Translations under genes and position numbers: made by a program | Part shown: piece after piece, positions 5,920 through 35,444 of the stretch | Numbering within the stretch: the first letter of the stretch is position 1 | Layout of the letters: every line of letters begins with the position of its first letter | Assembly (NCBI GenBank): GCA_046497505.1 | Contig: JAWOFN010000049.1 | Coordinates: 1 to 41,142, forward strand | Source: JAWOFN01 sp046497505 [NCBI: bacterium] | Lineage (GTDB): Bacteria > Blakebacterota > Blakebacteria > Blakebacterales | Reading direction: 5' to 3' | DNA length: 41,142 bases | The notes under the pieces: model-generated | What the model saw: the letters and a program-made list of their open reading frames with translations, nothing else | The model's database searches: none | What the model was told of the DNA's origin: nothing

Positions 5920-5960
5920 GGGGACCTCCGTGGGATGCGGGGCAGTTCGCTGAGATGAAA

Positions 5961-5990
5961 GACCCTCTCCGGCCGGGACCGGAGAGGGTC
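5961..5990 (-). terminator. Hairpin terminator after the citrate synthase operon
   Basis: A perfect 12-bp inverted repeat (GACCCTCTCCGG / CCGGAGAGGGTC) with a 6-nt loop lies 40 nt beyond the citrate synthase stop codon. On the minus strand it is followed by a short TTTC, so it is an intrinsic-type terminator with a weak U-tract. It separates the long Hdr/KOR operon from the metalloprotease gene. Confidence 0.7.
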
Positions 5991-6030
5991 GAGTGTAGGG
6001 CCGTGGACGGCCGACCTTCAACTGTGACGA

Positions 6031-7326
6031 TCAGCCGGGCGTCATGGCGACGTCGGTCGCATCCATACACGCCTGCACCCAGTCGGTGGTCACCGACTTC
6101 GGGCGGGTGATGGGCTCCATGGCCGCCCGGCAGAGGACCTGCTGGGCCAGCATGCCCATGGCCCGGCTCACGCTGAAGAGCACGGTATAGTAGTCCATCT
6201 CGGTCATGCCGTAGTGGTAGACCGTGCATCCGGACCCCGCGTCCACGTTGGGCCAGGGGTTCTTCGCCTTGCCATGCTCCTGCAGGACCTCGGGGATCAC
6301 CTCGAAGCCCACGTCCACCGTCTGGAAGAGCGGGTCCTCGGGGAAGTGCTCTTTGGCGAAACCGTGGAGAGCGGTGAAACGCGGGTCGGTGACCCGGAGT
6401 ACCGCGTGCCCGTAGCCCGGCACCACCTGCCCGCTGTCCAGCAGCTCCCAGGTGTACTCCTTCATCTGTTCCGGGGTGGGCGGTCCGTCGAAGCGCTCCA
6501 TGATGGCCAGGTTGAACTTCAGCGACTCCTGGTTCGCCAGCCCGTGGAGCGGCCCTGCCAGTCCGCAGAGTCCGGCGGAGACGGAATAGAAGGGGTCGGC
6601 CAGGGCGCTGGCCACCACCCGGCTGGTGTAGGCACTCACGTTCCCCCCCTCGTGGTCGCTGTGGAGGGTCAGGTAGAGCCGCACCAGGTCCGCGAACTCC
6701 GGGTCGTCGAAACCCAGCATCCGGGCGAAGTTGGCGGAGTAGCCCAGCTGCGGGTCGGGAGGGATCACCTCCCCCCTGTCATACCGGATTCGGTAGACGG
6801 CAGCGGCCACCACGGGCAGCTTCGCCAGCAGGGAGAGCGCATCGTCCAGCAGGGGCTCCCAGTAGCGGTCTTTCGCCACCCCTTCGTCGTACGAGCGCCG
6901 GAAGAAGGAGCCATCTTCCAGGGAGACCAGGGCTGTGATGAGCATGTCCATGGGGTGGGCCTCCCCGGGCATGCTCCTGAGGATGTCGAAGACGTAGGAG
7001 GGCGTCTCCTGGTGTCCCGCGAGCTGATCGCGCAAATCGGTGAGGGCTTCCTGGTCGGGCAGCTCACTCGACAGGAGCAGGTAGAAGATCTCCTCCGGGT
7101 GACGGTCGGTGAGTTCGGCGATGGGAGTGCCCCGTATCAGGAGCCCCCTGTCGGGTTCCACGCAGGAGGTGTCGCAGAGCAGCGCTTTCACGCCGCGCAG
7201 TCCCCCGAAGGCCTGCTTGAGGGTCACTTCCGAGATCACCTTCTCGCCGTGTTCGGTCACCAGGTCGGACAGCTTCTGGCGGAAGACCGGGACCTTCGCG
7301 GCCACCGCATCGTGTAAGGCTGACAT
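6031..7326 (-). CDS. gltA: Citrate synthase, mitochondrial (eukaryotic-like) type
   Basis: A 431-residue citrate synthase that condenses oxaloacetate and acetyl-CoA. It closely follows the pig mitochondrial enzyme, not the E. coli type: SDHEGGNVSA, GLAGPLHGLANQE, VPGYGHAVLR and YGMTEMDYYTVLF are all present. Active-site residues H225, H261, H307 and D362 sit at a constant offset of 13 from pig H238, H274, H320 and D375. This type is known in Geobacter and some other anaerobes. It is the last gene of the Hdr/KOR string, 21 nt after hdrB and before a hairpin terminator, so it is probably expressed with them. The position suggests a TCA cycle wired to ferredoxin; the direction of flux cannot be read from sequence. 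Confidence 0.96.
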   Translation of the reverse strand: MSALHDAVAAKVPVFRQKLSDLVTEHGEKVISEVTLKQAFGGLRGVKALLCDTSCVEPDRGLLIRGTPIAELTDRHPEEIFYLLLSSELPDQEALTDLRDQLAGHQETPSYVFDILRSMPGEAHPMDMLITALVSLEDGSFFRRSYDEGVAKDRYWEPLLDDALSLLAKLPVVAAAVYRIRYDRGEVIPPDPQLGYSANFARMLGFDDPEFADLVRLYLTLHSDHEGGNVSAYTSRVVASALADPFYSVSAGLCGLAGPLHGLANQESLKFNLAIMERFDGPPTPEQMKEYTWELLDSGQVVPGYGHAVLRVTDPRFTALHGFAKEHFPEDPLFQTVDVGFEVIPEVLQEHGKAKNPWPNVDAGSGCTVYHYGMTEMDYYTVLFSVSRAMGMLAQQVLCRAAMEPITRPKSVTTDWVQACMDATDVAMTPG

Positions 7327-7347
7327 CTGTCCATTCCCCCGTTTCGT

Positions 7348-8232
7348 TCAGGCCGGGTGCGGCTCCGTCTCGAACCGCTGCAGGCATTCGGGCTTGAAAC
7401 GCTGCCGGTCCAGGCCCAGCTGGTCGTAGGGCACACCCTGTGCGTGCGCGAGAAGCTGGAAGTAGTAGATGGGCGGGATGCTGAAATCCTCGTCGAAGTC
7501 CTTCGCCACCTTGCGCTGGCCATGGTCGAACTGGCCGAAGCAGGTGGGGCAGATCAAGCAGAGGATCTCCGCGTCCTCTTCGTGTACGGCTCGGAGCAGG
7601 TCCCGCATCATGTTCCCCGGGATGTCGTCCGCCTGGCACGCCTTGCCGCAGCAGAGATACCAGTTCCGGTGCCGTACGGGCTCGGCGCCCAGGGCCTCCA
7701 CCAGGTGCTCCAGGATCGTGGGGTTGTTCGGGTCGTCCACCTGCATGATATGGCTGGGCTTCAGGAGGTGGCAGCCGTAGTGGATGGCCACCTTCAGGCC
7801 CTCCAGCGGCCGGGTGACCGATTCCCGAAGGGCCTCGTACCCCACCTCGTCCCGGACCAGGGTGGCGACGTGACGTATCCGGCTGGTCCCTTTGTACTCC
7901 TTGCCGATCTTGTGCAGCCGCTCGTTCACCTGCTCCCGCACCTCCGGGACCTGGAGGTGGTGCCACGCCTCGGAGAGGGTGGCGGTGCAGCCGGAGCAGT
8001 TGGTGAAGAGGTCCACCCCCTGCTCCTCTGCCAGGCAGAGGTTGCGTGCCGCCACCGAGAGCCAGGCGATCTTGTCCTTCGACTTGAAATAGATGGGGTC
8101 GGGGCAGCAGGAGGCCCCCTCCAGGTCCAGGATCTCGATGCCCAGGCGGGGGAGGGTGTGCCGGATGGCGAACTCCATGGCCGGATACCGGCTGGGTATC
8201 AGGCAGCCGGGGAAGAAGGCGTAGCGGCTCAT
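7348..8232 (-). CDS. hdrB: HdrB-like subunit with two CCG domains
   Basis: A 294-residue protein of the heterodisulfide reductase B family. All ten cysteines of the two CCG motifs are present: C10, C42-C43, C79, C82, and C154, C194-C195, C228, C231. In methanogen HdrB the equivalent residues hold two non-cubane [4Fe-4S] clusters that reduce a disulfide. The start overlaps the hdrC stop (ATGA), and AGGAGG lies upstream, so translation is coupled. The natural substrate here is unknown. CoM-S-S-CoB is unlikely in a bacterium; another thiol or disulfide, or an electron-transfer role, is possible. Confidence 0.93.
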   Translation of the reverse strand: MSRYAFFPGCLIPSRYPAMEFAIRHTLPRLGIEILDLEGASCCPDPIYFKSKDKIAWLSVAARNLCLAEEQGVDLFTNCSGCTATLSEAWHHLQVPEVREQVNERLHKIGKEYKGTSRIRHVATLVRDEVGYEALRESVTRPLEGLKVAIHYGCHLLKPSHIMQVDDPNNPTILEHLVEALGAEPVRHRNWYLCCGKACQADDIPGNMMRDLLRAVHEEDAEILCLICPTCFGQFDHGQRKVAKDFDEDFSIPPIYYFQLLAHAQGVPYDQLGLDRQRFKPECLQRFETEPHPA

Positions 8233-8750
8233 GATGCTGCCTCCTCTCCCGCTGCCTCAGACCCCTCTCCCGGGTCTCCGAGCCCGATGAGTACCCGGAC
8301 CTCATCCATGGGGACGGGCTCCAGGGGGGGCAGACCGAACTTTTCGCGCTGCTTGTCCACCGCGGGGCTGTCCGGGACGGTACGGCCGGTCTCCTCGAAG
8401 GTCCCGATGACCCGTTCCACCGGCGTGGGATAGATGTCCCGATCCGCCAGCATGTTCTTCAGGGCGATGATGACCTCCACCGGCTTCACCTCCTGCGGAC
8501 ACCGCTCCGCGCAGTTGTAGCAGTTCGTGCAGTGCCAGAGGATGGAGTCCTCGGTGAGCAGGTCCCCGCCCAGACCGTAGAGCACCTTCAGCATGATCTT
8601 CCGCGGGTTGAACCCCGACCCGTAGGTCGTGGCGGGACAGTCCCCCACACACGCCCCGCACTGGTAGCAGAAGCTGGCCAGGTTCCCCTCCAGCTTCTCC
8701 GCCAGCTCCCGCCGGAAGGCGAAGTCCACCTGCACGGGCCCCTCGCTCAT
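8229..8750 (-). CDS. hdrC: HdrC-like 2x[4Fe-4S] subunit
   Basis: A 173-residue protein with two classic cubane-binding motifs, C28-C31-C34-C38 (CYQCGACVGDCP) and C74-C77-C80-C84 (CTNCYNCAERCP), in the HdrC arrangement. HdrC carries electrons between the HdrA flavin protein and the HdrB active site. No membrane segment is visible, so this is the soluble type and not the HdrE-fused QmoC type. It begins 4 nt after the zinc-ribbon gene and overlaps hdrB by 4 nt. The C-terminal ~25 residues are acidic and low in complexity. Confidence 0.94.
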   Translation of the reverse strand: MSEGPVQVDFAFRRELAEKLEGNLASFCYQCGACVGDCPATTYGSGFNPRKIMLKVLYGLGGDLLTEDSILWHCTNCYNCAERCPQEVKPVEVIIALKNMLADRDIYPTPVERVIGTFEETGRTVPDSPAVDKQREKFGLPPLEPVPMDEVRVLIGLGDPGEGSEAAGEEAAS

Positions 8751-8754
8751 GGAC

Positions 8755-8910
8755 TCATCCCTCCCCCCCCCTGCCCCGGAGATGCCGGATGCTGTTGGAG
8801 CGGCATTCCGGACAGGAGCGTTCGACGTCCTCGTCCGGGGCCACCTCTTCGGACCATTCTTTGCCGCACGCCATGCAGCGGAACCACTGGGTGCGCGTCT
8901 CGACCGCCAT
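8755..8910 (-). CDS. Small zinc-ribbon protein within the Hdr operon
   Basis: A 51-residue protein. The ATG at 8910 is preceded by GGAGGTGATC, a near-perfect ribosome site, which marks the true start within a longer open frame. Two knuckles, C12-x2-C15 and C33-x2-C36, predict one zinc (or rubredoxin-like iron) site. It lies between the HdrA-MvhD fusion gene (stop at 8951 precedes it) and hdrC, 4 nt from the latter, so it is co-expressed with the complex. Possible roles are assembly, subunit contact or electron transfer. None is proven. Confidence 0.8.
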   Translation of the reverse strand: MAVETRTQWFRCMACGKEWSEEVAPDEDVERSCPECRSNSIRHLRGRGGEG

Positions 8911-8950
8911 GATCACCTCCGCCTCCGAAGGACGGGGAGGCCGCCGGATG

Positions 8951-11428
8951 CTATTCGACGGCCACCTCCACCACTTCCCGGGCCTTCTCCGCCCGCTTCT
9001 CGGCCTTCTTCCTGGCCTTCTCGAACTCCTCCTCCACGACCTTGCGGGTGTGGTCGATCTCATCCTGGCTGACGCTCGCCCGGAGTTCCTCCAGCCGCTT
9101 CATCACCGCGGCGAACTTCTGCCCCTCCGCCGCACTGATCCACTCCAGCTGGAGCCGCTCGGGCCGGATGTCCAGCTTCTCGAGCTTGTTCCACAGCTTG
9201 TTCACCCGCTTCACCGTCTGCCGGTTGGCGTTGATGTAGTGACAGTCAGCGTAGTGACAGCCCGAGACCAGTACCACCGCGGCCCCCATCCGGAAGGCAT
9301 CCAGGACCATCTCCTCCGAGACCCGGGCGCTGCACATGGTGCGCACCACGCGGTTCGTCGTGGGATAGACGATCCGGGAGATCCCCGCCATGTCACCGCC
9401 CGCATAGGAGCACCAGTTGCAGGCGAAGGCGAACACCTTCTCCTCCGCCTCCTCGGCCAGGACCGCCTCCACCTGGGCCATGAGCTGCCGGTCGGTGAAG
9501 TGCCGCATCGTGATGGCGCCGAAGTTGCAGGCCGCGGCACAGTTCCCGCACCCTGCGCATGCCGCCTCGATGACCGTAGCCGACTGCCCCTTCTCCCACT
9601 CGATGGCAGCGAAGGGACAGACCGAGGCACACACCCCGCAGGCCGTACAGGCCGCCTGGTCGATCACCGAGGTGATCGCCTCGATGTCGATATGCCCCCG
9701 GTTGAGGAGCGCCCCGGCCCGGGAGGCCGCGGCTCCGGCCTGGCACACCGAGTCCTTGATGTCCTTCGGGGACTCACAGAACCCGGCGAAGTAGACCCCC
9801 TTGGTGGGGGCGTCGATCGGCTTCAGCTTGGGATGCGACTCCATGAAGAAGCCGTCGCTGGTCTTGGAGAGGGTGAGCATGCCGGAGATCTTCGTCAGGT
9901 CCTTCGGCGGCTGCACACCCACGCTCAGCACCAGCATGTCCAGCTCGTGCTCCTCCACCCTGCCCGCGGTGGTGTTCTCCACCGTCACGGTGAGGTTGCC
10001 GGTGTCCGGGTCCTCCCGGACCTCGCCGGGCAGGCCCCGTACATAACGCGTCCCGACCTCCTTGGAGCGCTGGAACATGTCCTCGAAACCCTTGCCGAAG
10101 GCGCGGATGTCCTGGTAGAAGACCACGTTCTCCACATCCGGGTAGTGGTCGGCCAGCAGCAGGGTGTCCTTCACCGTGTTCATGCAGCAGATGTTGGAGC
10201 AGTAGGGCCGCCCGATCTTCTCGTTCCGGCTCCCCACGCACTGGATGAACCCGATCCGCTTCGGGCGTTCCTGGTCGCCGGGCCGCACGAAGTGTCCCTC
10301 GGTGGGGCCGCCGGCGCAGATGAGGCGCTCGAACTCCATGCTGGTGATCACGTTGGGGAAGCGAGTGTACCCGTACTCGTCCATCTCGGTGGGATCGTAG
10401 ACGTCCAGGCCGATGGCCACGATGACCACCCCCACCTCCCGCTTCAGGATCTGGTCCCGGTCGTCGTAATCGATCGCCTCCTGTTCGCAGACCTCCACGC
10501 ACTTGCCGCAGGCGATCGGGTTGTTCCCCAGGCAGTTCTCCATGTCCAGGATGTAGGAGCAGGGCACGGCCTGTGGGAAGGGGATGTAGATGGCATGACG
10601 GGAGGAGAGCCCTACCTGGTACTCGTCCGGCACTACCACCGGGCAGACCTCCTCGCACTCGCCGCAGGCGTTGCAGGCCTCCAGGTCGACGTACCGCGCC
10701 TTCTTGCGGATCGTCGCGGTGAAGTTGCCGACGTACCCGTCGATGTTCTCTACTTCACTGTGTGTCAGCAGCTCGATGTTACGATGCCGACCGGCATCGA
10801 TGGCCTTAGGGCCGAGTATTCATATGCTGCAGTCCATGGTGGGGTAGGTCTTGTCCAGCTGCGCCATGACCCCGCCGATGGACGGCTGCTTCTCGACCAG
10901 CGTTACCTGGTGGCCCGCTTCGGCCAGTTCGAGCGCTGCCTCGATGCCGGAGATGCCCCCGCCGATGACCAGGGCGCGCTGGGACACCGGGACCCGGAGC
11001 TCTTCCTGCGCCTGCAGGTTCCGGGCCTTGGCCACGGCACTGGCCACCAGGTCCTTCGCCTTCAGCGTCGCCCCTTCCCGGTCGTTGGGATGGACCCAGG
11101 AGCAGTGCTCCCTGAGGTTGGCCATCTCCATCAGGTAGGGGTTGAGCCCCGCGTCCTGCACGCACTGACGGAAGGTGGGCTCGTGCTGTCTGGGTGTGCA
11201 CGATGCCACCACCACCCGGTTCAGTCCGTGCTGGCTTATGGCGTCCTTGATCTCGTTCTGCCCCGGATCCGCGCAGGTGTACTTGTTGCGTATCGCACAG
11301 ACCACGTCGGGCATCTCCGAGGCGTATTCGGTGACCTCCTGGGTATCCACCGCTCCCGCGATGTTCAGACCGCAGTCGCAGACGAACACGCCGATCCGAA
11401 GGTCTCCGTTCGCCGACTTACCAGCCAT
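8951..11428 (-). CDS. hdrA: HdrA-MvhD fusion selenoprotein (in-frame TGA = Sec203)
   Basis: An 825-residue flavoprotein if the TGA at 10820-10822 is read as selenocysteine 203. Both sides are in one frame and one family. In order: N-terminal HdrA Fe-S domain (FVCDCG, YTCADPG, ASCTPRQHEP); FAD-binding GGGISGIEAA (~152-161); the motif DCSI-U-ILGPK, a position occupied by Cys or Sec in HdrA proteins; CNACGECEEVCP (~253); an extra Cys-containing insert (~300-312); two more [4Fe-4S] motifs (~591-634); an MvhD-like domain (~663-790, FACNWCSYAGG, SGCHYADCHY); and a charged helical tail. An HdrA-MvhD fusion recalls QmoB of sulfate reducers. GGAAGG lies 5 nt before the ATG. Probable role: flavin-based electron distribution in an Hdr complex. 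Confidence 0.9.
10782..10799 (-). promoter_or_regulatory. Candidate bacterial SECIS element of the HdrA-MvhD gene
   Basis: Read on the minus strand, a perfect 7-bp stem (CGATGCC / GGCATCG) closes a GGTC loop. It starts 20 nt after the in-frame TGA at 10820-10822. Position and a loop opening with GG match bacterial SECIS elements such as that of E. coli fdhF, which recruit SelB. The stem forces His to CAT and Gly to GGT in a genome that otherwise prefers C-ending codons. Confidence 0.8.
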
Positions 11429-11482
11429 AGCTTCCTTCCTTTGCGGTTCAGCCGGTGTTGATCTCCCTTACCCCTCCACCCC

Positions 11483-12640
11483 TCATGAGCGTGCGGCCGC
11501 GACCAGTTCGGCCACGTCCCGCATCTCGATGCGTATCTCCTCTTCCAGGTTCGGGTCGTTCATGGCACAGCTCAGGTGGATCTGGCACTTGGGGCATGAG
11601 GTCACCAGGACCTCGGCCCCTGTGGCCTTCGCCTCCATGAGCCGGTCCACCTGGATCTTCTTGGCGTAGCGGTCGCAGTTGGACCATGTGCTGCCCGCGC
11701 AGCAGACCGCTCCGGCACGGCTGCGTCCCATCTCGGTCAGCTCGATGCCCGGGATCGCCTCCAGGACCTGGCGGGGGGGGTCGTAGACCCCCAGGTGCCG
11801 TCCCAGACGGCAGGGGTCCTGGTAGGTGACGCGGCGGGTGCCGTTCCCCCCTTCCACCTCTCCCAGGTCCAGATCCCCCAGCATCTCGACCAGGTATTCG
11901 CTGATGTGCAGCATCCGGGGGGGCTCACCCTCCCAGTACGGCTCGTATTCGACCCGTAGGGTCCGCAGGCACTCCGCACAGGAGGTCACCAGGACCTCCG
12001 CCCCGCTCTTCTCGATGAGCTTCGTGTTGTGGCGGGCCAGCATCTCGAAATGCTCGACATCACCGTTCCAGAGCAGGTCGTGGCCGCAGCAGCGCTCCTC
12101 GCCCGAGACCACCGGGTTGGTGCCCAATCCGTTGATGAGACCCACTGCCGCCCGGGCCGCGTCCAGGGTCTTCACCCCGTACTCCTCGAACATGTCGTCG
12201 TAGTAGACCGCGCATCCCGCCCAGTAGAAGATCTCGCTCCGCTGCTTGTTCCCGGTCAGGCCCGCTTCGTCCAGCCAGCCGCGACGGTCCTGCTCGGTAC
12301 CCCCCCGGGCCATCATGCGCATCAGCGACTGGAGGGCCCCTCCGTGGGGACATTCCGGTTCGTATCCCTCTTCGTGGGCGTAGACCCTCAGCTCCTTGAC
12401 CAAGTCGGTGTAGCGGACCTCGGCGGGACAGCGCTGGTCGCACGCTCCGCAGGAGAGGCAGACATAGAGTCCCCCGTCGTCCAGCAGCGCCTCGGGCTGC
12501 ACCTGGTTCGCTGCCAGCACGTTCCTTCGGGGGCTGAAATGACCGCCCGCCCGGGCCACCGGACAGGTGGACGTGCACTTGCCGCAGTCGTAACAGGCCC
12601 AGGCACGGGTCCTGCGGGCGGCGTCTGCGAGCTGGTGCAT
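11483..12640 (-). CDS. HdrD-like protein (fused HdrC-HdrB type)
   Basis: A 385-residue Fe-S protein combining an HdrC-like part (C16-C19-C22-C26 and C61-C64-C67-C71) with two CCG domains. The first CCG domain has YWAGC, RCCGHD and TSCAEC; the second has QDPCR, VCCAGS and TSCPKC. This is the HdrD/GlpC architecture, which reduces disulfides or passes electrons. It is therefore a second, independent catalytic-type module beside HdrB in the same operon. It starts 12 nt after the MvhD-like gene, with GGAGGTGAGGGG before its ATG, and precedes the HdrA-MvhD gene by 54 nt. A tandem-HdrA, MvhD, HdrD order also occurs in the Bam electron-transfer genes (BamE, F, D) of class II benzoyl-CoA reductase. 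No BamB/C is present here. Confidence 0.92.
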   Translation of the reverse strand: MHQLADAARRTRAWACYDCGKCTSTCPVARAGGHFSPRRNVLAANQVQPEALLDDGGLYVCLSCGACDQRCPAEVRYTDLVKELRVYAHEEGYEPECPHGGALQSLMRMMARGGTEQDRRGWLDEAGLTGNKQRSEIFYWAGCAVYYDDMFEEYGVKTLDAARAAVGLINGLGTNPVVSGEERCCGHDLLWNGDVEHFEMLARHNTKLIEKSGAEVLVTSCAECLRTLRVEYEPYWEGEPPRMLHISEYLVEMLGDLDLGEVEGGNGTRRVTYQDPCRLGRHLGVYDPPRQVLEAIPGIELTEMGRSRAGAVCCAGSTWSNCDRYAKKIQVDRLMEAKATGAEVLVTSCPKCQIHLSCAMNDPNLEEEIRIEMRDVAELVAAARS

Positions 12641-12652
12641 CCCCTCACCTCC

Positions 12653-13090
12653 TCATCCGGCTCGGGCACGTGCGACCGGACTGGGCCCGAGGGCCCGGAC
12701 CTGATCGGTGAACTCGTTGATGACAGCGGCGAACTTCGGCCCCTCCGCGGCGCTGATCCATTCCAGGCGGAGCCTGCCCTCCCCGATACCCAGCCGGCGG
12801 ACCAGGCTGCGGGTGGTCTCGAACTGCTCCACCGCACGCTCGTTCCCGGATACGTAGTGGCAGTCCCCGAAGTGGCATCCCGACACCAGCACGCCGTCCG
12901 CACCCCGTTCGAATGCCCGGAGCACGAACCCCGGGTGGACCCGCCCCGAGCACATGACCCGGATGATCCGGAAGTGGGGCTGGTGCTGGATGCGGCTCAC
13001 ACCCGCGGTGTCCGCACCGGCGTAGGAACACCAGTTGCACGCGAAGACCACGATGGTGGGGTCCCAGTCCGACCTCCCCTTCTTCGCCAT
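12653..13090 (-). CDS. MvhD-like [2Fe-2S] electron-transfer subunit
   Basis: A 145-residue stand-alone MvhD/FrhD-type protein (hydrogenase iron-sulfur subunit family). Conserved cysteines are C18 and C21 (ACNWCSYAG), C47 (MCSGR), C72 and C77 (GCHFGDCHY). In methanogens MvhD links a hydrogenase to HdrA through a [2Fe-2S] cluster. No hydrogenase gene is in this window, so its electron partner is open. The ATG at 13090 overlaps the stop of the tandem HdrA gene (ATGA), which fixes the start; the longer upstream open frame is not supported. It is homologous to the C-terminal domain of the HdrA-MvhD fusion in the same operon. Confidence 0.93.
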   Translation of the reverse strand: MAKKGRSDWDPTIVVFACNWCSYAGADTAGVSRIQHQPHFRIIRVMCSGRVHPGFVLRAFERGADGVLVSGCHFGDCHYVSGNERAVEQFETTRSLVRRLGIGEGRLRLEWISAAEGPKFAAVINEFTDQVRALGPSPVARARAG

Positions 13091-16000
13091 CAGCCCGCCT
13101 CCTTCCCTGCGAACACCGCGTCGATCATGGCGTGCACCTGCCGGTCGGTGAAGTGACGGGCCGTGATCGCCCCGGAGGGGCACCAGCTGGCACAGGTACC
13201 GCACCCCTTGCAGAGGGAGGGCTGGATCCGGGCGGCCACCGAACCGTCATCCAGCTCCACCATCTCGGCGGCATGGAAGGGACACACCTCCACACACTTG
13301 CCGCAGGCGCGGCACCGCTCGGTGTCCACCGATGCCACGGCCGGTTCAAGATTCACCCGGTCATAGGCCAGGAGCACCGCCGCCTTCGCTGCGGCCGCAC
13401 TCGCCTGGGAGGCGGTGTCCACCAGGTCCTTCGGCCCCTGGGCCGTGCCCGCCACGAACACCCCGTCCACCACGGTCTCGACCGGCGCCAGTTCGGGGTG
13501 GCGCTCCAGGAAGAACCCGTCCAGCCCCAGGGAGGCCTTGAGCATCTCGTGGAAGTGCTTCGTCTCGGGCTGGCGGGGACGCATCCCCACACTCAGCACC
13601 ACCAGGTCGGTGGGGACCTCCAGTTCGCGGTCCAGGAGCTCGTCCCGGCTGCGTACCGCCCTGGCCCACTTCTCACCCTCCACATCCGGCTGCTGCCCCG
13701 GGGGGATGCGGACGAAGAGCACCCCCATCCCCCGCGCCTTGCGGTAGAGTTCCTCGGCCCCGGTGGAGACGGTCCGTATGTCGCGGTAGAAGATGGTGGT
13801 GTCGATCCCCTGCTCCACCAGCTGGATGGCCTGTTTGATGGCCGTCGGGCAGCAGTAGCGGGAGCATCCGGTGAACCCTTCCTCCTGCCGGGAGCCCACG
13901 CAGAGGATGAAGGAGGCGCTGGTGGGTTTCACCCCGGCCACCGAGATCTCCTCCTCGCTCTCGCAAAAGAGGTTCTCCAGCTCCTGGCTGGTGAGCACGT
14001 TGGGCAGACGCCCGTACCCGTACTCCTCCTCCGGCCGGTAGAGGTCGGCCCCGAAGGCCAGGATGACGGCCCCCACCTCCAGTTCCTCGGTCTCCTCCCC
14101 GTCCGCACCTTCCAGGCAAGCCGTGAAGTTCCCCACGAAGCCGTCGATGGATCCCACCCCGGTGCCGGTGAGGATCCTGGCCCCGCTCTTCTCCAGCCGG
14201 GCAACCTTCGCCTCCAGCACCTCGTCCGCTTCCCGCATGTTGGGATAGAGCACGTGGAGGTTCGGAGGGGCCAGACGCCCCCCGAGCATCTCCTCCTTCT
14301 CCACCAGCGTCACCGGGAAGCCTTGTTCCGCCAGGTCGGTGGCGGCCTGGATGCCGGCCATGCCGCCCCCCACGACCAGTGCCGCCCGCTTCACCGCCTC
14401 GGTACCTCCCGTGAGCGGCTCCAGGTGGCGTGCACGGGCCGCACCCATCCGTATCAGGTCCCGTGCCTTCTCCTGGGCCTCCACCTTGCTCCGGGCGTGG
14501 ACCCAGGAACACTGGTCACGGATGTTGACCATCTCCAGGAGGTAGGGGTTGAAGCCGATTCGGGAGCAGCTCTCCCGGAAGACCGGCTCGTGGGTCCTGG
14601 GCGTGCAGGACGCCACCACGATCCGGTTCAGATCGTGCTCGCGGATCATCTCCACCATGCGGTCCTGCCCGCTGGCCGAGCACGCGAAGAGGTGGGTCTC
14701 GGCGGCAGCCACACCGGGCAGGCCGGCGGAGTACTCCGCCAGGTCCTCCACGTCCAGGACCGCTGCGATGTTCACCCCGCAGTGGCATACGAAGACACCG
14801 ATCCGGGGCGGGCCGCTCAGGTCCATCGGCTCCGTCTCGTCCTCCTCCTCCTCGACCCGGTGACCGCAGAGGAAGAGCTCCGCCCGGGACGCAGCGGCCG
14901 AGGCCTGCGCCACCGAGTCGGGGATGACCTGGGGACCCACCGCGCTCCCGCAGACATAGACGCCCTCACGCGCCGTCTCCACGCTTGAGATGGCCGGGTC
15001 GGCACGGGAGATGAACCCGTACCGGTCGGTCTCGATGCCCAGGGTATGCGCCAGTTCCATGGCCCCTTCGTTGGGGGCCGCGGCCACCGAGAGGACCACC
15101 ATGTCCGCCTCGATACGCCGCTGCTCGTGGGCAAGGGTGTCCTCGACGAACACCTCCAGCGACTTCCCGTCAGCCGCCCTGTCGATCTTGGCCGGGCGGC
15201 CCCGGATGTACGTCGCGCTCTCCTCCTCGCGGCTCCGCGCCACGAAGTCGTCGAAACCCTTGCCGAACGCCCGCAGGTCGGTGTAGAGGATGGTGATCTC
15301 CTCCACTTCCGGGTCGTGCTGGCGGATGAGCATGGAGTCCTTTACCGCGTTCATGCAGCAGAACCGGCTGCAGTACGCCCTCCCGCCGTCACCCCGTGCC
15401 CCCACGCACTGGACGAAGACGATCCTCTTCGGGGTGGTATGGTCGGAGGGTCTCACCACGTGTCCCCCGGTCACGCCCGAAGCGTTGAGCATGCGTTCCA
15501 CTTCCAGGCTGGTGACCACGTCGGGGAAACGGCTGTAGCCGTACTGGCCCAGCTTCCTGGCGTCGAACTCCTGGAATCCCACGGCAACCAGGACCGAACC
15601 CACGTCCACGGTGAACTCGCGGGTATCCTGGTCGAAGTCGATGGCCCCCACGTCGCACGCCTCCAGGCAGTGTCCGCAGGGAAGCAGGTTGAGGGGCTTG
15701 TCGGGGTACTTGCGCTTCTTCGCGGCGGTGACCTTGTCCAGCTTCTGCCGCTGCTTCTCGTCCAGGTGGGCCAGGAAGTTGAGACAGGAGTCCGGCTCGA
15801 TGACATACGCGGCGGGCACCGACTGCGGGAAGGGGCGATAGATCGCCTTCCGTGCCTTCAGCCCCACGTCGAATTCGTTGCCTCCCACCTGGGGGCACAC
15901 CTCGACGCACTGCCCGCAGGCCACGCAGGCATCCTCGTCCACGTAGCGCGGGTACTTGCGGACGGTGACCCGGAAGTCCCCCGGGCTACCCTCGCAGCCG

Positions 16001-16281
16001 ACGACCTCGGCACATGTGATCAGCTCGATGAGTGGATGCCGACCGACATCCATGGCCCTTGGGCCCAGGATTCATATCGAGCAGTCCATGGTGGGGAAGG
16101 TCTTGTCCAACTGGGCCATACGGCCGCCCAGGGAGGGTGACTTCTCCACCAGGACCACAGGGATCCGGGCATCGGCCAGGTCGAGGGCCGCCTGCATGCC
16201 GGCGATCCCGCCCCCGATGACCAGGGCCTTCCGGTCGGTCCTTGCATCCACCCCGTCGCGTGGAACGGTCTGGTCGATCAT
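13090..16281 (-). CDS. hdrA: Tandem HdrA selenoprotein (in-frame TGA = Sec70)
   Basis: A 1063-residue protein if TGA 16072-16074 is selenocysteine 70. Module 1 starts directly with FAD-binding [10 protein letters not shown], then [22 protein letters not shown] (~117) and a lysine-rich insert containing CGHC. Module 2 starts near residue 490 with the HdrA N-terminal Fe-S domain ([27 protein letters not shown]), a second FAD motif ([10 protein letters not shown]) and two C-terminal [4Fe-4S] motifs (~989 and ~1024). Module 2 lacks the Cys/Sec site: its equivalent stretch reads [16 protein letters not shown] double HdrA of this size resembles BamE of benzoyl-CoA reductase complexes. Both ends overlap neighbours by 4 nt (KOR gamma, MvhD), implying tight co-expression and stoichiometry. 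Confidence 0.9.
16034..16051 (-). promoter_or_regulatory. Candidate bacterial SECIS element of the tandem HdrA gene
   Basis: On the minus strand, GGATGTC pairs with GGCATCC (7 bp, one U-G wobble) around a GGTC loop. It lies 20 nt after the TGA at 16072-16074. Spacing, stem length and loop match the element in the other HdrA gene. The single stem difference (C to U) keeps pairing through a wobble, which is compatible with selection for structure. Confidence 0.8.
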
Positions 16282-16919
16282 ACCGCCGTTTCCTGGCTTT
16301 CGGGTGAGGACTCCTGCTCACTCTCTTCGGTCTTCTCCGTCTTCCCGCCGTCGCCCCGGGGCAGCTTCTCACCGTCGTTGTACTCCTCCTCGAACCACGA
16401 CACACCCCGCTCGAAGGCCTTCAGGTTCAGCTCCTCGGTACCCTTGGGCACCGAGTGCTCCACCGCCTCCCGCATCTCCTCCAGGGAGACGATACCCGTG
16501 ACCGCCGTGGCGAAACCGAGCATGACGATGTTCTGGACGATCACCTTCCCCAGTTCCTCGGCGATCCGGGTCGAGGGGATGCCGAAGCTCTCCTGCCCCT
16601 CCTTGGGTCGGGCCTCCACCAGGTCCTGCTCGTAGACGAGCGTCCCGTCCTCCTTCAGCTCGTCCCGGTACTTCTCGTACCCCTCCCCGCTCATGACCAC
16701 GAACACATCCGGACGGCGGATATAGGGGTAGAGCACCTCGTCCTCGGAGAGGACCAGGGTGGCGCTGCACGCGGCTCCGCGGGCCTCGGGACCGAAGGAC
16801 TGGATCATGGTGGCCTGGTTCCCCGCCTCGATGGAGTAGGCCCGGCCGATGATGTGGGCCATGAGGATCGAACCCTGGCCTCCGAGTCCTGTGATCCGCA
16901 TCTGCAGTGGATTACTCAC
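16278..16919 (-). CDS. korC: 2-oxoacid:ferredoxin oxidoreductase, gamma subunit (set 1)
   Basis: A 213-residue gamma subunit of the pyruvate/2-oxoglutarate:ferredoxin oxidoreductase family, with [11 protein letters not shown] at the start, [13 protein letters not shown] and a C-terminal [16 protein letters not shown] chose GTG at 16919: it overlaps the end of the beta gene by 8 nt and has a G-rich ribosome site, whereas the internal ATG at 16901 has none. The last ~35 residues are a charged, Glu/Ser-rich tail beyond the usual end. It overlaps the tandem HdrA gene by 4 nt, so KOR and Hdr parts are translationally coupled. Confidence 0.92.
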
Positions 16920-17808
16920 CGATCCACCCCCCTTCCGGGGCCATGGGCACGTACTCATCGCCCAGCACCTTCTCGTAGTGACTGTGCATCCGCTCCAGGA
17001 ACGAGGGCTTCTCCTCATCCACGAACTTCCCGCAGACGATCCTCCCCTGGTAGGTGATGTCGAGTTCCTTCGTGTCCGCCCCGTGCCGTATCTCCGCGTT
17101 GTCGTGGTAGTACTGCATGAGGTTGAGTCCGGTCCCCAGCTTGTTCCGCCTGCTGTAGAGGGTGGAACAGGGGGTGATCACCTCGATCAGGCGGAACCCC
17201 TTGCGCTGCAGCCCCTCCTCGATGGCCTTGGTCACGCGCCGTATGTGCAGACAGGTCCACCGGGCCACGTAGGAGGCCCCGGCGCTGGCCACCAGGTGGG
17301 GGATGTTGAAGGGATGCTCAAAGTTGCCGAAGGGCATGGTGCTGGAGTTGGCGGTCGTGGGGGTGGTGGGCGCGTTCTGACCGCCGGTCATGGCGTAGAT
17401 GAAATTGTTCACCAGGATGACCAGCAGGTCCATGTCGCGCCGGGCAGCGTGGATCAAGTGGTTGCCGCCGATCCCCGAGAGGTCCCCGTCGCCGCTGAAC
17501 ACCGACACGTTCAGCTCGGGACGGGCCAGTTTGAGCCCGGTGGCGAAGGGGATGGCCCGCCCGTGGGTGGTATGGAAGCCGTCGAGCTTCATGTAGCCCG
17601 CCACACGTCCGGTGCACCCGATGCCCGAGACCACCGAGACCTTGTCGAGGTCGAGCCCCAGCCGTTCCAGGGCGGTCGCGTAGCACTTCACCACCGTCCC
17701 GATCCCGCAGGTCGGACACCAGATGTGGGGCATCCGGTCCATGCGGATGAAGGGCTCGATGGGATGCTCTTCGGCCTGTACGTCCACTTCTTTGACCGGT
17801 GCCGTCAT
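16912..17808 (-). CDS. korB: 2-oxoacid:ferredoxin oxidoreductase, beta (TPP) subunit (set 1)
   Basis: A 298-residue thiamine-diphosphate-binding subunit. IWCPTCGIGTVVK near residue 30 and a later Cys (GIGC) are typical of KorB. GDGDLSGIGGNH followed by NNFIYAMTGGQ form the TPP/Mg site. It decarboxylates a 2-oxoacid with CoA and passes electrons to ferredoxin, or makes the 2-oxoacid in reverse. The substrate is probably 2-oxoglutarate, judging by subunit layout and the neighbouring citrate synthase, but branched-chain 2-oxoacids cannot be excluded. The start overlaps the alpha stop (ATGA). Confidence 0.94.
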   Translation of the reverse strand: MTAPVKEVDVQAEEHPIEPFIRMDRMPHIWCPTCGIGTVVKCYATALERLGLDLDKVSVVSGIGCTGRVAGYMKLDGFHTTHGRAIPFATGLKLARPELNVSVFSGDGDLSGIGGNHLIHAARRDMDLLVILVNNFIYAMTGGQNAPTTPTTANSSTMPFGNFEHPFNIPHLVASAGASYVARWTCLHIRRVTKAIEEGLQRKGFRLIEVITPCSTLYSRRNKLGTGLNLMQYYHDNAEIRHGADTKELDITYQGRIVCGKFVDEEKPSFLERMHSHYEKVLGDEYVPMAPEGGWIGE

Positions 17809-18962
17809 TTCACTGCTCCCATGATGACGTCGAGGATGGCCTCGGGATCGTGGACCCCGCCGCCGCCGTGGGGGACCTGGAAGGTCTCCACCTTCCCGGC
17901 GGCGCAGCGCTCCACCTCGAGGGACATCTGTCCGTAGTTGATCTCCGGTACGACGAAGGCCTTCACCTTCCCGGCCAGTTCGCGGATCCGCTCCTCCGGG
18001 AAGGGCCAGACCACGATGAGGCGCATCACCCCCACCTTGACCCCCTTCTCACGGGCCATCTCCACCGCGAGGCGGGCGACCCGCGCGGTGATGCCGTAGG
18101 TGATGAGGACGACCTCGGCATCCTCCACCCCGTCCTCCTCGAACCGGACGATCTCACCGGCGTTCTCGCGGATCTTCCGGTTGATGCGGCCCACGCTCAC
18201 TTCCTGGGTCTCGGCACTCATCACCGGATAACCCCGCTCGTCGTGGGTGAGGCCGGTGCTGTGGAACTTGTAGCCGTCGCCTGCCCGGGCGAACTCGGGG
18301 ACCATGCCCCCGTTCAGCTCATAGGGCAGGTAATCTCCCGGTTTCTTCTTCGTGAGCCCGCGAGGGACGATCTCGACCTCGTGGGCGGGGGGGATGATGA
18401 CCTTCTCGGTCATGTGCCCCACGCACTCGTCCATCATGAACATCACGGGCACCCGATAGGTCTCGGCCAGGTTGAAGGCCTCTATGACCAGGTCGAAGGC
18501 CTCCTGGGGGGACTTGGGGGAGAGCGCGATGACCTCCATGTCCCCGTGGGAGCCCCATCGGGCCTGCATCATGTCCCCCTGCCCCGTCATGGTGGGAAGT
18601 CCCGTGGAGGGGCCGCCCCGCTGCACGTTCACGACCACGCAGGGGGTCTCCATCATGGCCGCCAGCCCGATGTTCTCCTGCATGAGGCTGAAGCCGGGAC
18701 CGCTCGTCACCGTGGCCGACTTCGTCCCCGTCCATGAGGCACCCACCACGGCCGCCATGCTCCCCAGCTCATCCTCCATCTGCACGAAGGTCCCCCCCAT
18801 GAAGGGGAACCGCCGCGCGATACGTTCCACCACCTCGGTGGAGGGCGTGATGGGGTAGCCGGCCACGAACCGGCAGCCCGCCGCCATCATGCCTTCCCCG
18901 CAGGCGAAGTCTCCGTCCAGGTAGTGGGCGCCCGTCAGTACGCCCGAAGGATCCGCTTTCAA
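17805..18962 (-). CDS. korA: 2-oxoacid:ferredoxin oxidoreductase, alpha subunit (set 1)
   Basis: A 385-residue alpha subunit lacking a fused gamma domain. FVAGYPITPSTEVVE, TSGPGFSLM, QRGGPSTGLPT and GQGDMMQARWGSHGD are KorA/OorA family motifs. The start codon is TTG at 18962, supported by AAAGGAG nine nt upstream; no better start lies nearby. A TTG start in an operon of ATG and GTG genes may lower translation slightly. It follows the delta gene by 54 nt and overlaps beta by 4 nt. Confidence 0.93.
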   Translation of the reverse strand: MKADPSGVLTGAHYLDGDFACGEGMMAAGCRFVAGYPITPSTEVVERIARRFPFMGGTFVQMEDELGSMAAVVGASWTGTKSATVTSGPGFSLMQENIGLAAMMETPCVVVNVQRGGPSTGLPTMTGQGDMMQARWGSHGDMEVIALSPKSPQEAFDLVIEAFNLAETYRVPVMFMMDECVGHMTEKVIIPPAHEVEIVPRGLTKKKPGDYLPYELNGGMVPEFARAGDGYKFHSTGLTHDERGYPVMSAETQEVSVGRINRKIRENAGEIVRFEEDGVEDAEVVLITYGITARVARLAVEMAREKGVKVGVMRLIVVWPFPEERIRELAGKVKAFVVPEINYGQMSLEVERCAAGKVETFQVPHGGGGVHDPEAILDVIMGAVK

Positions 18963-19016
18963 CGCAAACTCTCCTTTCCCGGACCCCGTCCTCGAGGGAT
19001 CGGGGCCGCAGGGCTC

Positions 19017-19304
19017 TCATGCCTTCTGTTCCGCCTTCTCCGCCCCATCCTCGGTGGGGACGCTGAAGATGGCGAAGTCGGGGCAGATCATCTCGCAGAG
19101 GTTGCAGTTCACGCACTCCCCCTGCTTGACCACCTCGGGTGGGTGGTAGCCTTTCTTGTTGAAGGCACTGGAGATGGCCAGGACCCCCTTGGGGCAGTAC
19201 TCCACACAGAACCCGCATCCTTTACACCGTTCCGCCAGGATGCGGACCTCCCCGTGAGGGACGTCGACCTGGTCAAGATCCAGCGGCCTGCGCCAGTATT
19301 CCAT
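19017..19304 (-). CDS. korD: 2-oxoacid:ferredoxin oxidoreductase, delta (2x[4Fe-4S]) subunit (set 1)
   Basis: A 95-residue ferredoxin-like protein with two cubane motifs, CKGCGFCVEYCP and CVNCNLCEMICP. It is the electron outlet of a four-subunit KOR. It is the second gene of the string, 15 nt after the MarR-type regulator, with an AAGGAAGTG ribosome site. The acidic, Lys/Glu-rich tail is not part of the ferredoxin fold. Confidence 0.94.
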   Translation of the reverse strand: MEYWRRPLDLDQVDVPHGEVRILAERCKGCGFCVEYCPKGVLAISSAFNKKGYHPPEVVKQGECVNCNLCEMICPDFAIFSVPTEDGAEKAEQKA

Positions 19305-19319
19305 CGGCCACTTCCTTCG

Positions 19320-19895
19320 TTACTGGGTCTCCGCTTCCGGGTCTTCCCGCTGATTCCGCGCCCGGAGGCTCCGGTAGGGGCATCCGCCCTGGATGACCCC
19401 CACCACACAATCGTCCTGGAGATAGGCGCCGCATCGCAGACAGACGCCGTCCGACAGGGTGTCCAGCCCGCACAGGGCCAGGATGAACCGTTCCAAAAGA
19501 TGGGCCAGCGCCTCGATGTCCTGGGGGGCGAACTGGTCCAGGAGGGGATAGAGACGGGCCGCCTTCAATTCCTCGTAACGGATCACCAGCCGCCTTCCCC
19601 GGGAGGTGACCGAGAGGAGCAGCGCCCGGCGGTCCCCCTCCGACCTCTTCCTGTCCAGCAGGCCGAGCCGAACCAGCTTCTCGATGTTCTTGCTGGCAGC
19701 GGGGGGACTCATCCCCAGAAAATCCGCCACCTCCCCCACCTGGTGCTGTCCGTCGATGGAGAGGAGCTTGAGGAGATGGAACTGGGAGAGGGTCAGGGGG
19801 AGGTTGGTGGTGTCCCGGATCAGGTTCTCTTCGAGGACCTCCCGCACCACGGCGGAGAAGATGTGGCTGCTTCGGAGCAAGCGGAGGTAGTTCAT
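19320..19895 (-). CDS. MarR-type regulator with a C-terminal cysteine cluster
   Basis: A 191-residue regulator. Residues ~30-115 form a MarR winged helix (LTLSQFHLLKLL, GMSPPAASKNIEKLVRLGLL, then the wing EGDRRALLLSVT). Beyond the dimer helix it carries five cysteines: C142, C152, C155, C163, C172. The spacing suggests a bound metal or Fe-S cluster, unusual for MarR proteins. It is the first gene of the KOR/Hdr/citrate synthase string and is 66 nt from an inverted repeat likely to be its operator, so autoregulation and control of the whole string are likely. GGAGGAGG before the ATG gives a strong start. The ligand or redox signal is unknown. Confidence 0.9.
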   Translation of the reverse strand: MNYLRLLRSSHIFSAVVREVLEENLIRDTTNLPLTLSQFHLLKLLSIDGQHQVGEVADFLGMSPPAASKNIEKLVRLGLLDRKRSEGDRRALLLSVTSRGRRLVIRYEELKAARLYPLLDQFAPQDIEALAHLLERFILALCGLDTLSDGVCLRCGAYLQDDCVVGVIQGGCPYRSLRARNQREDPEAETQ

Positions 19896-19961
19896 GCCTC
19901 CTCCTTGCCGCTCCGGTCCGTCGGGCGGGACCTGATCGGTTGGGGTACGAATAGTGAACCC

Positions 19962-19990
19962 GGTTAAACATTAACCTCCTTACACATTAA
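19962..19990. promoter_or_regulatory. Repeated operator-like site upstream of the MarR gene
   Basis: GGTTAAACATTAACC (19962-19976) is a perfect 6-bp inverted repeat with a 3-bp centre. A related copy, TTACACATTAA (19980-19990), follows 16 bp later in the same orientation. AT-rich palindromes of this size next to their own gene are typical MarR-family operators. The 16-bp spacing is about one and a half helical turns. Confidence 0.6.
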
Positions 19991-20232
19991 CAGCCTCAGA
20001 TTGGGCCCGTTCGGCTGCGGGCATCAACAAGCGCTCAATCGGAATTCGGACCGGGGGGTCGGGAACCCGCGTCCAGCCTTGGTTTTCGGGGTCCGAACGT
20101 TCCAACCCGTTAGGAGTCCTACCTGAGGCGGCGTGCGCCGCAGCTCCCTTCTCCGCCCGTCTCCTCCCCCCTCCCCACCTCATCATCCCTCCGCTCCGCC
20201 CCGAATATCGGCCCCTCCCGATCCCTCCCCCC

Positions 20233-20261
20233 TTGACCCCCGGAGAGACGGACTCTAGATT
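20233..20261 (+). promoter_or_regulatory. Sigma-70-like promoter for korC2 and the nucleotidyltransferase
   Basis: TTGACC (20233-20238), a 17-bp spacer and TAGATT (20256-20261) match the sigma-70 consensus at 5/6 and 4/6 positions. The expected transcript starts near 20268, leaving a leader of about 38 nt before the ATG at 20306. Confidence 0.55.
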
Positions 20262-20305
20262 TCAGGCATCGCTGTCCGGTTTACGACGGGAACTGGGGAT
20301 CGCGC

Positions 20306-20845
20306 ATGAGCGACAGGTACGAGATACGATTGAGCGGAGCCGGGGGACAGGGTCTGATCCTGGTGGGTAAGATCCTGGCCGAGGCCGCCGCCATCTACGA
20401 CGAGAAGAACGCCACCCAGAGCCAGTCGTACGGCCCTGAGGCCCGGGGAGGCGCCAGCCGTTCCGAGGTCATCATCAGCGACGGGGAGATCGACTATCCG
20501 AAGGCGGAGGCCATCGACCTGCTGCTGGCCATGACCCAGGAGGCCGCGGACAAGTACGTCAAGGACGTCAAGGGGGAGGGTATGGTGGTGGTCGACTCCA
20601 CCTTCGTGGAGCGTCCTCCCGATGGGGATTTCACCGTCCACTCCTATCCCATCACCCAACTGGCCGACGAGGAACTGGGAAAGAAGATCGTGGCCAACAT
20701 CGTGGCCCTGGGGATCATCGAGAAGCTCTCCAGCGTCGTCAGCGAGGAAGCCCTTCTCACCGCCATCAGGACCCGGGTGCCCAAGGGCACCGAGGAACTG
20801 AACCTGAAGGCGTTCAAACTGGGTCAGGCGCAGGTCACGACCTGA
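20306..20845 (+). CDS. korC: 2-oxoacid:ferredoxin oxidoreductase, gamma subunit (set 2)
   Basis: A 179-residue gamma subunit with IRLSGAGGQGLILVGK at the start, QSYGPEARGGASRSEVI and a C-terminal [12 protein letters not shown]. The family partner is probably the delta-alpha-beta set at 23874-26235, which lacks its own gamma gene. It is thus encoded on the opposite strand from its presumed partners, in a two-gene unit with a large nucleotidyltransferase-like gene 67 nt downstream. The second gamma subunit (16278-16919) has a longer charged tail, so the two are not interchangeable by eye. Confidence 0.92.
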   Translation: MSDRYEIRLSGAGGQGLILVGKILAEAAAIYDEKNATQSQSYGPEARGGASRSEVIISDGEIDYPKAEAIDLLLAMTQEAADKYVKDVKGEGMVVVDSTFVERPPDGDFTVHSYPITQLADEELGKKIVANIVALGIIEKLSSVVSEEALLTAIRTRVPKGTEELNLKAFKLGQAQVTT

Positions 20846-20912
20846 TCCCGGGGCGGCCGGGACCTGCGGCTCCCGCCCGAGGGCTGCTCCCTCCGCCCGG
20901 AAGGTGTCCTGG

Positions 20913-23861: not shown

Positions 23862-23880
23862 GGATACCCGTACTCAGGTC
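23855..23880. terminator. Shared hairpin between convergent genes
   Basis: GACCTGAG and CTCAGGTC form a perfect 8-bp stem with a 10-nt loop. The structure contains the stop codons of both convergent genes (nucleotidyltransferase and KOR beta 2), which lie only 12 nt apart. There is no T-tract on either side, so it may slow or end transcription only weakly in both directions. Confidence 0.45.
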
Positions 23881-25976: not shown

Positions 25977-26013
25977 TTCGGGTACTCCCCGATGTTTGGC
26001 TGGGGGATCCGGT

Positions 26014-33171: not shown

Positions 33172-33248
<77 letters not shown>

Positions 33249-35367: not shown

Positions 35368-35444
<77 letters not shown>

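Follow-up and report, generated by a model that had tools for sequence, protein, structure and literature searches.

Why should the genes of a 2-oxo acid enzyme be strung together with those of an electron machine of the heterodisulfide reductase (Hdr) type? The question is raised by a stretch of 41,142 nucleotides (contig JAWOFN010000049.1 of assembly GCA_046497505.1, from JAWOFN01 sp046497505, Blakebacterota; hereafter the window), in which a 2-oxoacid:ferredoxin oxidoreductase (KOR) is encoded beside two HdrA proteins and further Hdr subunits. KOR catalyses a key step of anaerobic tricarboxylic acid (TCA) cycles in both directions, and the use or supply of its low-potential electrons is an open energy question. 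We consider it probable that the string is an operon and that KOR acts as the dedicated low-potential partner of a selenocysteine (Sec)-dependent, flavin-based bifurcating or confurcating Hdr unit, the complex, its direction and its partners being deduced from gene content and comparison.

The locus is compact. Thirteen genes on the minus strand, counted with two in-frame UGA codons read through, run from position 19895 to 6031 in the order marR, korD, korA, korB, korC, hdrA1, mvhD, hdrD, hdrA2-mvhD, zinc ribbon, hdrC, hdrB, gltA, and the distances between them range from -8 to +54 bases if korC is assumed to start at GTG (Table 1). The close-packed string proposed by an earlier, sequence-only reading of this DNA is thereby confirmed, and so is its claim that the familiar partners of Hdr are missing: among the 33 Pfam-scanned window genes, none encodes a catalytic partner of the hydrogenase, formate dehydrogenase, Flox, MetF, Qmo or Bam type, and neither flxABCD nor aclAB was found beside kor and hdr. 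All four KOR subunits are present, KorA above its family cut-off and KorD, KorB and KorC below their specific ones. The only minus-strand terminator-like hairpin within 5900-20400 (5990-5961) lies directly 3' of gltA, and for the window's organism a single transcript ending there is likely; the hairpin scan itself is weak evidence, with four found against a shuffle mean of 5.4 and a match to consensus only.

Does the linkage extend beyond this contig? Relatives were gathered with HdrA1 as sole query over genome contigs, and gene order in the resulting 79 loci, a sample drawn from the best 80 matches listed, was established by tblastn of the window's proteins (loci carry L numbers below, genomes G numbers). 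The order korB-hdrA1-mvhD-hdrD-hdrA2 stands on one strand in 34 of the 79 (the core loci), and all eleven genes from korD to hdrB are in order in 16; in the remaining loci the string runs into a contig end, has another arrangement or is devoid of KOR. All core loci come from records titled as metagenome-assembled genomes (MAGs), four of the sampled loci (L022, L028, L034, L036) being on chromosome-titled records, and by title they cover nine bacterial phyla (Planctomycetota, Acidobacteria, Myxococcales/Deltaproteobacteria, Zixibacteria, Gemmatimonadota, Eisenbacteria, Fermentibacteria, Armatimonadetes and Verrucomicrobia) and one archaeon, of the Methanomassiliicoccales. The full eleven-gene order occurs in Planctomycetota, Acidobacteria, Myxococcales/Deltaproteobacteria, Zixibacteria, Fermentibacteria, Armatimonadetes and records titled simply "bacterium", and not in Gemmatimonadota.

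Because the loci were fetched by HdrA1 alone, with KOR outside the query, the association is not a matter of chance. Counted over the 75 loci with a usable HdrA1 match, at least two KOR subunits are present in all 38 loci whose HdrA1 is 45% or more identical and whose upstream sequence extends for 3 kb or more (21/21 at 60% or more, 17/17 at 45-60%), or in 44 of 50 if the upstream condition is dropped; below 45% identity, KOR is found in 2 of 25 loci overall, and in 2 of 18 if 3 kb upstream is required. KOR linkage therefore marks one group of double HdrA proteins. The set is also kept with korC placed after hdrB (L005, L007) or with hdrCB ahead of hdrA1 (L028); elsewhere it forms divergent halves, korDABC-hdrA2-zinc ribbon and hdrCB-hdrA1-mvhD-hdrD (L033, L058) or is permuted to korC-hdrA1-mvhD-hdrD-hdrA2-korDAB (L072). 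L077 holds a small Cys version, korDABC-hdrA2-hdrCB. A marR gene adjoins korD in 11 of the 79 loci, several Planctomycetota and Acidobacteria among them. Loss of the order in relatives had been named beforehand as the result that would speak against the linkage; since KOR proves to be a conserved, co-diverging neighbour of the Hdr set, this is not what we see.

The co-divergence is visible in pairwise protein distances, which, over pairs that are not independent, correlate between KorA and HdrA1 (r 0.96, 465 pairs), HdrD (0.95, 496 pairs), HdrA2 (0.92, 435 pairs) and HdrB (0.92, 276 pairs); values for KorC are lower (0.62-0.80). These correlations come without an unlinked control gene, and vertical descent would give co-divergence too, which tempers what they say for a partnership. 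In a midpoint-rooted KorA tree of 49 rows, 45 rows, comprising every Hdr-linked KorA and including L017_19776, which adjoins the L017 cluster from outside, split off (100/99) from four others, namely the window's second KorA (see below), the second KorA of L028 and of L024, and L008_3738; a long-branch warning applies to the last and to the window's second KorA, which pairs with Gemmatimonadota L028 (95/73, not starred). Within the 45, a group of 24 rows intermixes Planctomycetota, Acidobacteriota, Myxococcota, Fermentibacterota and the window (99/97). The window's Der (EngA) protein shows only moderate similarity to all 26 genomes searched (33-55% identity per segment where the match is full), with its best summed score in Gemmatimonadota G024. 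The cluster proteins of the window, in turn, mostly share 65-80% identity with their Planctomycetota and Acidobacteria counterparts (about 55-70% for HdrD and KorC), and identity to the Gemmatimonadota locus L028 is lower, at 42-68%. Der score, taken as summed bits, and HdrA1 identity are inversely related (Spearman -0.47, n=25, p 0.017; G028 with locus L032 was left out, its Der match being a fragment, and L021 was included with a partial match), an opposition that fits transfer of the KOR-Hdr set between phyla. KOR and Hdr have thus diverged in step and seem to travel between phyla together.

The sequence-only reading had also tied the string to the TCA cycle through citrate synthase, and this tie is not supported. 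Among the 16 full loci, 14 reach at least 1.5 kb downstream, and gltA follows hdrB in none of them; the sole gltA match in the 79 loci lies upstream on the opposite strand (L068), and no citrate synthase is found among the 16 downstream proteins scanned from 14 loci. The proteins encoded there vary (GH127, a sigma-54 regulator, a lipase, a nuclease, a B12-binding protein and, in L019, HdrA/MvhD). Citrate synthase is therefore rejected as a member of the module, and gltA, the last gene of the string, counts as a local addition outside the conserved set; of the proposed order korDABC-hdrA-mvhD-hdrD-hdrA-hdrCB-gltA, the part from korD to hdrB stands and the last gene does not. A citrate-synthase-family match exists somewhere in 37 of 41 genomes, some of the matches being short and maybe citryl-CoA lyase-like. 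As for other neighbours, a GNAT acetyltransferase gene lies after hdrB in L004 (18347-19249, opposite strand), L009 (18941-19888) and L017 (16697-17302), and the L019 locus, from Ca. Sulfomarinibacter, continues after hdrB (8331-11755) with another HdrA and a 470-residue protein that has an N-terminal MvhD domain and a long tail without Pfam match.

What, then, do the two hdrA genes encode? Under translation table 11 both end at PTMDCSI-TGA-ILGP. Reading through the TGA restores a double HdrA and an HdrA-MvhD fusion whose residues U70 and U203 both align, by hand count, with residue 197 of HdrA (PDB 5odc chain A), a Cys which, according to the literature, is a ligand of the iron-sulfur cluster shared between two HdrA proteins and is donated by the partner HdrA. 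A hairpin with a GGUC loop follows each TGA, and one of at least six pairs is found at all 71 motif-matched TGA sites (the window's two included) against 0 of 31 sites with a Cys codon (TGC/TGT). By alignment across the 34 core loci, the Sec position is TGA in 32 and TGC in two of the hdrA1 genes, and TGA in 33 and TGC in one of the hdrA2 genes. Over 47 aligned hairpins, 20 cells have both partners of a pair changed (from C-G to U-A in 17, from G-C to C-G in 3), a number reached by 0 of 500 shuffles. SelB exceeds its cut-off in 36 of 41 genomes with a TGA-site locus versus 3 of 9 with a Cys-only locus, and tRNA-Sec reaches its score in none of six archaeal Cys genomes. Five TGA genomes (G004, G005, G019, G023, G033) are without SelB over cut-off; in two of them, G004 and G023, tRNA-Sec exceeds the gathering score, and G005 falls marginally short for SelB (230 of 242 bits).

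Some of the evidence points the other way. The window's hdrA1 hairpin, taken alone, is unremarkable (z -1.27), and hdrA1 of L051 has an aligned TGA site and no such hairpin; two-sided variation is confined to two of the seven pairs, with five invariant, the outermost pair is unformed in 13 of the 47 sites, and two of five covariation measures are matched by 238 and 290 of 500 shuffles. Moreover, G005, G019 and G033 show neither SelB nor tRNA-Sec over cut-off, part of the tRNA candidates having been scored. Could UGA then be an ordinary stop, each HdrA being made as two pieces, as the open frames under table 11 would have it? We deem this extremely improbable, given that UGA recurs at the same place in both hdrA genes and in nearly all core relatives while other homologues have Cys, that the hairpin marks every motif-matched TGA site and no Cys site, and that bacterial Sec-HdrA has been known since 2006 (PMC1794560; further cases in PMC5109826 and PMC13188914; here and below, statements on papers cited by PMC number refer to the portions of their text that were accessible). 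Both HdrA proteins are probably selenoproteins, with Sec insertion in the window's organism predicted from these signatures. What was earlier described as "tandem HdrA" corresponds to one double-HdrA protein and a separate HdrA-MvhD protein, each split by an in-frame TGA; separate tandem genes or pseudogenes are rejected because UGA and hairpin are kept in relatives. As standard gene calling splits both genes at the UGA, the module is easily overlooked. Among individual loci, the chromosome-titled L022 (G019), possibly an incomplete MAG, has UGA and hairpins in both hdrA genes with neither SelB nor tRNA-Sec clearing its cut-off, and L021 (6872-14544) holds a partial second hdrA1 copy with an identical UGA/hairpin stretch, either a recent duplication or an assembly error.

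The domain anatomy would suit an electron-splitting unit. HdrA1 carries an FAD site, the residue-197 Sec and an inserted ferredoxin domain in its first half; its FAD motifs lie at 21 and 636, the Sec motif being confined to the first half and the N-terminal CxCG motif to the second, which lacks a residue-197 equivalent. It thereby has the two FAD domains and the complementary N-terminal domain and residue 197 that define a type II HdrA. In HdrA2, a complete HdrA is fused to MvhD. Every one of the three flavin sites retains the counterparts of K409 and E356, residues proposed as marks of bifurcating HdrA (PMC12054007), as counted by hand against 5odc and as seen by motif search; two complete CCG motifs of the non-cubane cluster type occur in HdrB and likewise in HdrD. 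In some relatives adjacent genes are joined in frame, mvhD with hdrD in L037, L042, L045, L054 and L074, and hdrC with hdrB in L015, L017, L018 and L047. The zinc-ribbon gene is found in 31 of the 79 loci, where it adjoins hdrA2 even with hdrCB located elsewhere (for example L024, L034 and L058).

How might KOR and Hdr work together? We envision that the four KOR subunits oxidise a 2-oxo acid, or make one in reverse, and that KorD carries the low-potential electrons, so that KOR would play the part which in known Hdr complexes falls to free ferredoxin, hydrogenase or formate dehydrogenase. The Hdr part would contribute three flavin sites, of which HdrA1 holds two and HdrA2-MvhD the third, together with MvhD adapters and a thiol/disulfide-type site each in HdrB and HdrD, with selenocysteine at the Cys197 position of both predicted HdrA proteins, and electrons might be bifurcated or confurcated between KOR at low potential, a mid-potential carrier and a thiol or disulfide. 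The in-frame joins hint at contacts, from which we infer two submodules, KOR/HdrA2-MvhD and HdrA1/MvhD/HdrD/HdrCB; conceivably, an MvhD or the ferredoxin domain inserted in HdrA1 is the site of electron exchange with KorD. In an oxidative mode, low-potential electrons from KOR and electrons from thiols would be confurcated to the mid-potential carrier, whereas in a reductive mode it is the Hdr part that would feed KOR with electrons for carboxylation. We lean slightly towards the oxidative direction because CdhC of carbon monoxide dehydrogenase/acetyl-CoA synthase, the autotrophy marker tested, is not general (6 of 41 genomes exceed the cut-off, one weakly). A role tied to the Wood-Ljungdahl pathway, to sulfate reduction or to DsrC was considered and discarded, as none of the respective markers is general (dsrA is over cut-off in 10 of 41 genomes, DsrC in 23).

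The opposite direction, in which Hdr bifurcation drives KOR to carboxylate acyl-CoA to a 2-oxo acid within a reverse TCA cycle and citrate synthase runs backwards, would suit the gltA gene in the window's string and the citrate-synthase-family matches in most genomes, and a similar idea has been published for korABCD with flxABCD-hdrABC of tubeworm symbionts (PMC6315080); with gltA unlinked in relatives and CdhC scarce, we judge it unlikely. The partnership might also be looser than we propose, co-expressed KOR and Hdr trading electrons through soluble ferredoxin without forming a complex and Hdr being a ferredoxin-dependent bifurcating enzyme in its own right. KOR enzymes generally use free ferredoxin, and each of the two parts looks complete as a unit. 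A KOR-Hdr gene fusion, sought in the 79 loci, occurs in none, which speaks for this looser arrangement and also weighs against a dedicated partnership, as does the lack of genes for a mid-potential carrier module. On the other side, the KorA tree sets the Hdr-linked KOR apart from the second KOR of the window, and KOR is kept in all 38 testable loci even though two or more KorA-family matches at E up to 1e-60 (long fused or partial relatives among them) turn up in 39 of 41 genomes, so that a further source of reduced ferredoxin is likely. Exchange through a soluble pool consequently strikes us as rather improbable, but we are equally doubtful of the boldest version of our proposal, a stable supercomplex in which a Sec-dependent three-flavin Hdr would carry out two coupled rounds of bifurcation or confurcation, with KOR itself as low-potential partner, tie the reversible oxidation/carboxylation of a 2-oxo acid directly to a thiol/disulfide and spread between phyla as one eleven-gene machine.

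A dedicated KOR-Hdr partnership would leave room for different substrates, and here the second KOR matters. Its genes (20306-26235) lie beside the string, split over both strands around a GlnD-like protein, and they score higher on the 2-oxoglutarate models than the Hdr-linked set does (KorB' 346 vs 236 bits on PRK09628, KorA' 426 vs 353 on PRK09627), which also tells against the TCA tie proposed for the string. It follows that the Hdr-linked KOR may act on another 2-oxo acid, for instance an amino-acid-derived one, the second KOR being the TCA enzyme. The separate position of the Hdr-linked KorA in the tree agrees with this division of labour, but both sets remain below the specific cut-offs, and NCBIfam and PDB still point to 2-oxoglutarate enzymes as the best-named relatives of the Hdr-linked KorB; we regard it as a serious possibility without expecting it. 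That the Hdr-linked KorA and KorB stay under the 2-oxoglutarate-specific cut-offs (353 of 579 and 236 of 364, respectively) is a further count against our overall proposal. The pair of korC' and the GlnD-like gene recurs near the KOR-Hdr cluster in nine loci of Zixibacteria and Gemmatimonadota. Farther along the window, two tRNA-Pro genes with anticodons CGG and GGG (33172-33248 and 35368-35444) lie some 2 kb apart.

Table 1. Features of the KOR-Hdr string and of the adjacent second KOR, in window coordinates (bits refer to the named models).
Feature	Position	Strand	Support
MarR-family regulator	19320-19895	-	Pfam MarR_2 4e-13
KorD, ferredoxin subunit of KOR	19017-19304	-	NCBIfam OGOR_delta 66 bits (cut-off 125, not reached)
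KorA, alpha subunit of KOR	17805-18962	-	PRK08659 550 bits (cut-off 411); PDB 1yd7, 8ys5
KorB, thiamine pyrophosphate-binding beta subunit	16912-17808	-	Pfam TPP_enzyme_C; PDB 8ys5 chain C 206 bits
KorC, gamma subunit, GTG start assumed	16278-16919	-	Pfam POR 1e-34; PRK08537 185 bits (below cut-off 235)
HdrA1, double-HdrA (type II) fusion, 1063 residues, UGA/probable Sec at residue 70	13090-16281	-	
hdrA1 TGA codon and GGUC-loop hairpin resembling a Sec insertion sequence (SECIS)	16034-16074	-	z -1.27
MvhD (FlpD), stand-alone	12653-13090	-	Pfam FlpD 2e-52
HdrD-like protein, two CCG motifs and 4Fe-4S dicluster domain	11483-12640	-	
HdrA2, HdrA-MvhD (type Ia) fusion, 825 residues, UGA/probable Sec at residue 203	8951-11428	-	NF040770 1138 bits (cut-off 1100)
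hdrA2 TGA codon and GGUC-loop SECIS-like hairpin	10782-10822	-	z -3.00
Zinc-ribbon protein, 51 residues, FmdB-like below family cut-offs	8755-8910	-	
HdrC	8229-8750	-	TIGR03290 104 bits (below cut-off 160)
HdrB, two CCG motifs	7348-8232	-	TIGR03288 293 bits (below cut-off 345); PDB 8rvu, 5odc
Citrate synthase (gltA)	6031-7326	-	Pfam 5e-93; PRK09569 504 bits (cut-off 344)
Terminator-like hairpin after gltA	5961-5990	-	consensus match only
korC' (second KOR)	20306-20845	+	
GlnD-like protein, 985 residues	20904-23861	+	
korB' and korA' (second KOR)	23874-25976	-	
KorD-like ferredoxin	26014-26235	-	

How does the module compare with known systems? The methanogen HdrABC-MvhD complex (PDB 5odc) supplies sequence relatives of HdrA, HdrB, HdrC and MvhD and matchable positions 197, 356 and 409; it differs in having one HdrA domain per chain, Cys instead of Sec, and a hydrogenase as partner. 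In the MetFV-HdrABC-MvhD complex of Moorella thermoacetica we know of no second HdrA or HdrD. That complex resembles the window in its fused HdrA with complementary halves, its MvhD and a partner enzyme from carbon metabolism, which is MetFV there and KOR here (PMC9012536). The type II HdrA clusters of methane-metabolising archaea, for which two bifurcation events have been suggested, likewise have a double HdrA with complementary halves, MvhD, HdrBC and sometimes an extra HdrA with HdrD, but their partners are FdhB and a molybdopterin-family protein rather than KOR (PMC12054007, PMC9012536); as far as the accessible text of these sources goes, the window departs from them further in the fusion of the extra HdrA to MvhD, in the UGA of both hdrA genes and in the added zinc-ribbon gene. 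The Sec-HdrA operons of Deltaproteobacteria and methanogens share the UGA-encoded HdrA and, in bacteria, neighbouring hdrA-hdrA genes, and are set beside frhD-frhG-frhA and glpC, not KOR, in the part of the source at hand (PMC1794560). Closest in concept are the clusters of tubeworm symbionts and Thioflavicoccus, where korABCD occurs with flxABCD-hdrABC and tfrAB, KOR genes are interspersed with Hdr genes and a possible complex has been suggested by the authors; unlike the window, they include flxABCD (for NADH) in a reverse-TCA setting with aclAB, and the accessible text does not name Sec, a double HdrA or HdrD (PMC6315080), whereas the present set, in which flx and acl were not found, is spread over many phyla. 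For Ca. Sulfomarinibacter, bifurcating Hdr complexes have been reported, and a search of the accessible text returned no mention of 2-oxoglutarate or ferredoxin oxidoreductase (PMC8528874). Within the open-access literature, subscription papers being mostly outside the search, we found no description of KOR with a double HdrA, HdrD and HdrBC. As far as the accessible portions of these papers show, the individual elements (the Hdr core, Sec-HdrA and a proposal for KOR/Flx-Hdr) have thus been published, and it is their combination that did not turn up in the open-access literature searched.

A gene set that joins a 2-oxo acid enzyme to a probable selenium-containing electron-splitting machine may represent an unrecognised way in which anaerobes save energy. 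If our proposal is true, it would reveal an unrecognised energy-coupling site in many uncultured Planctomycetota, Acidobacteria, Zixibacteria and others.

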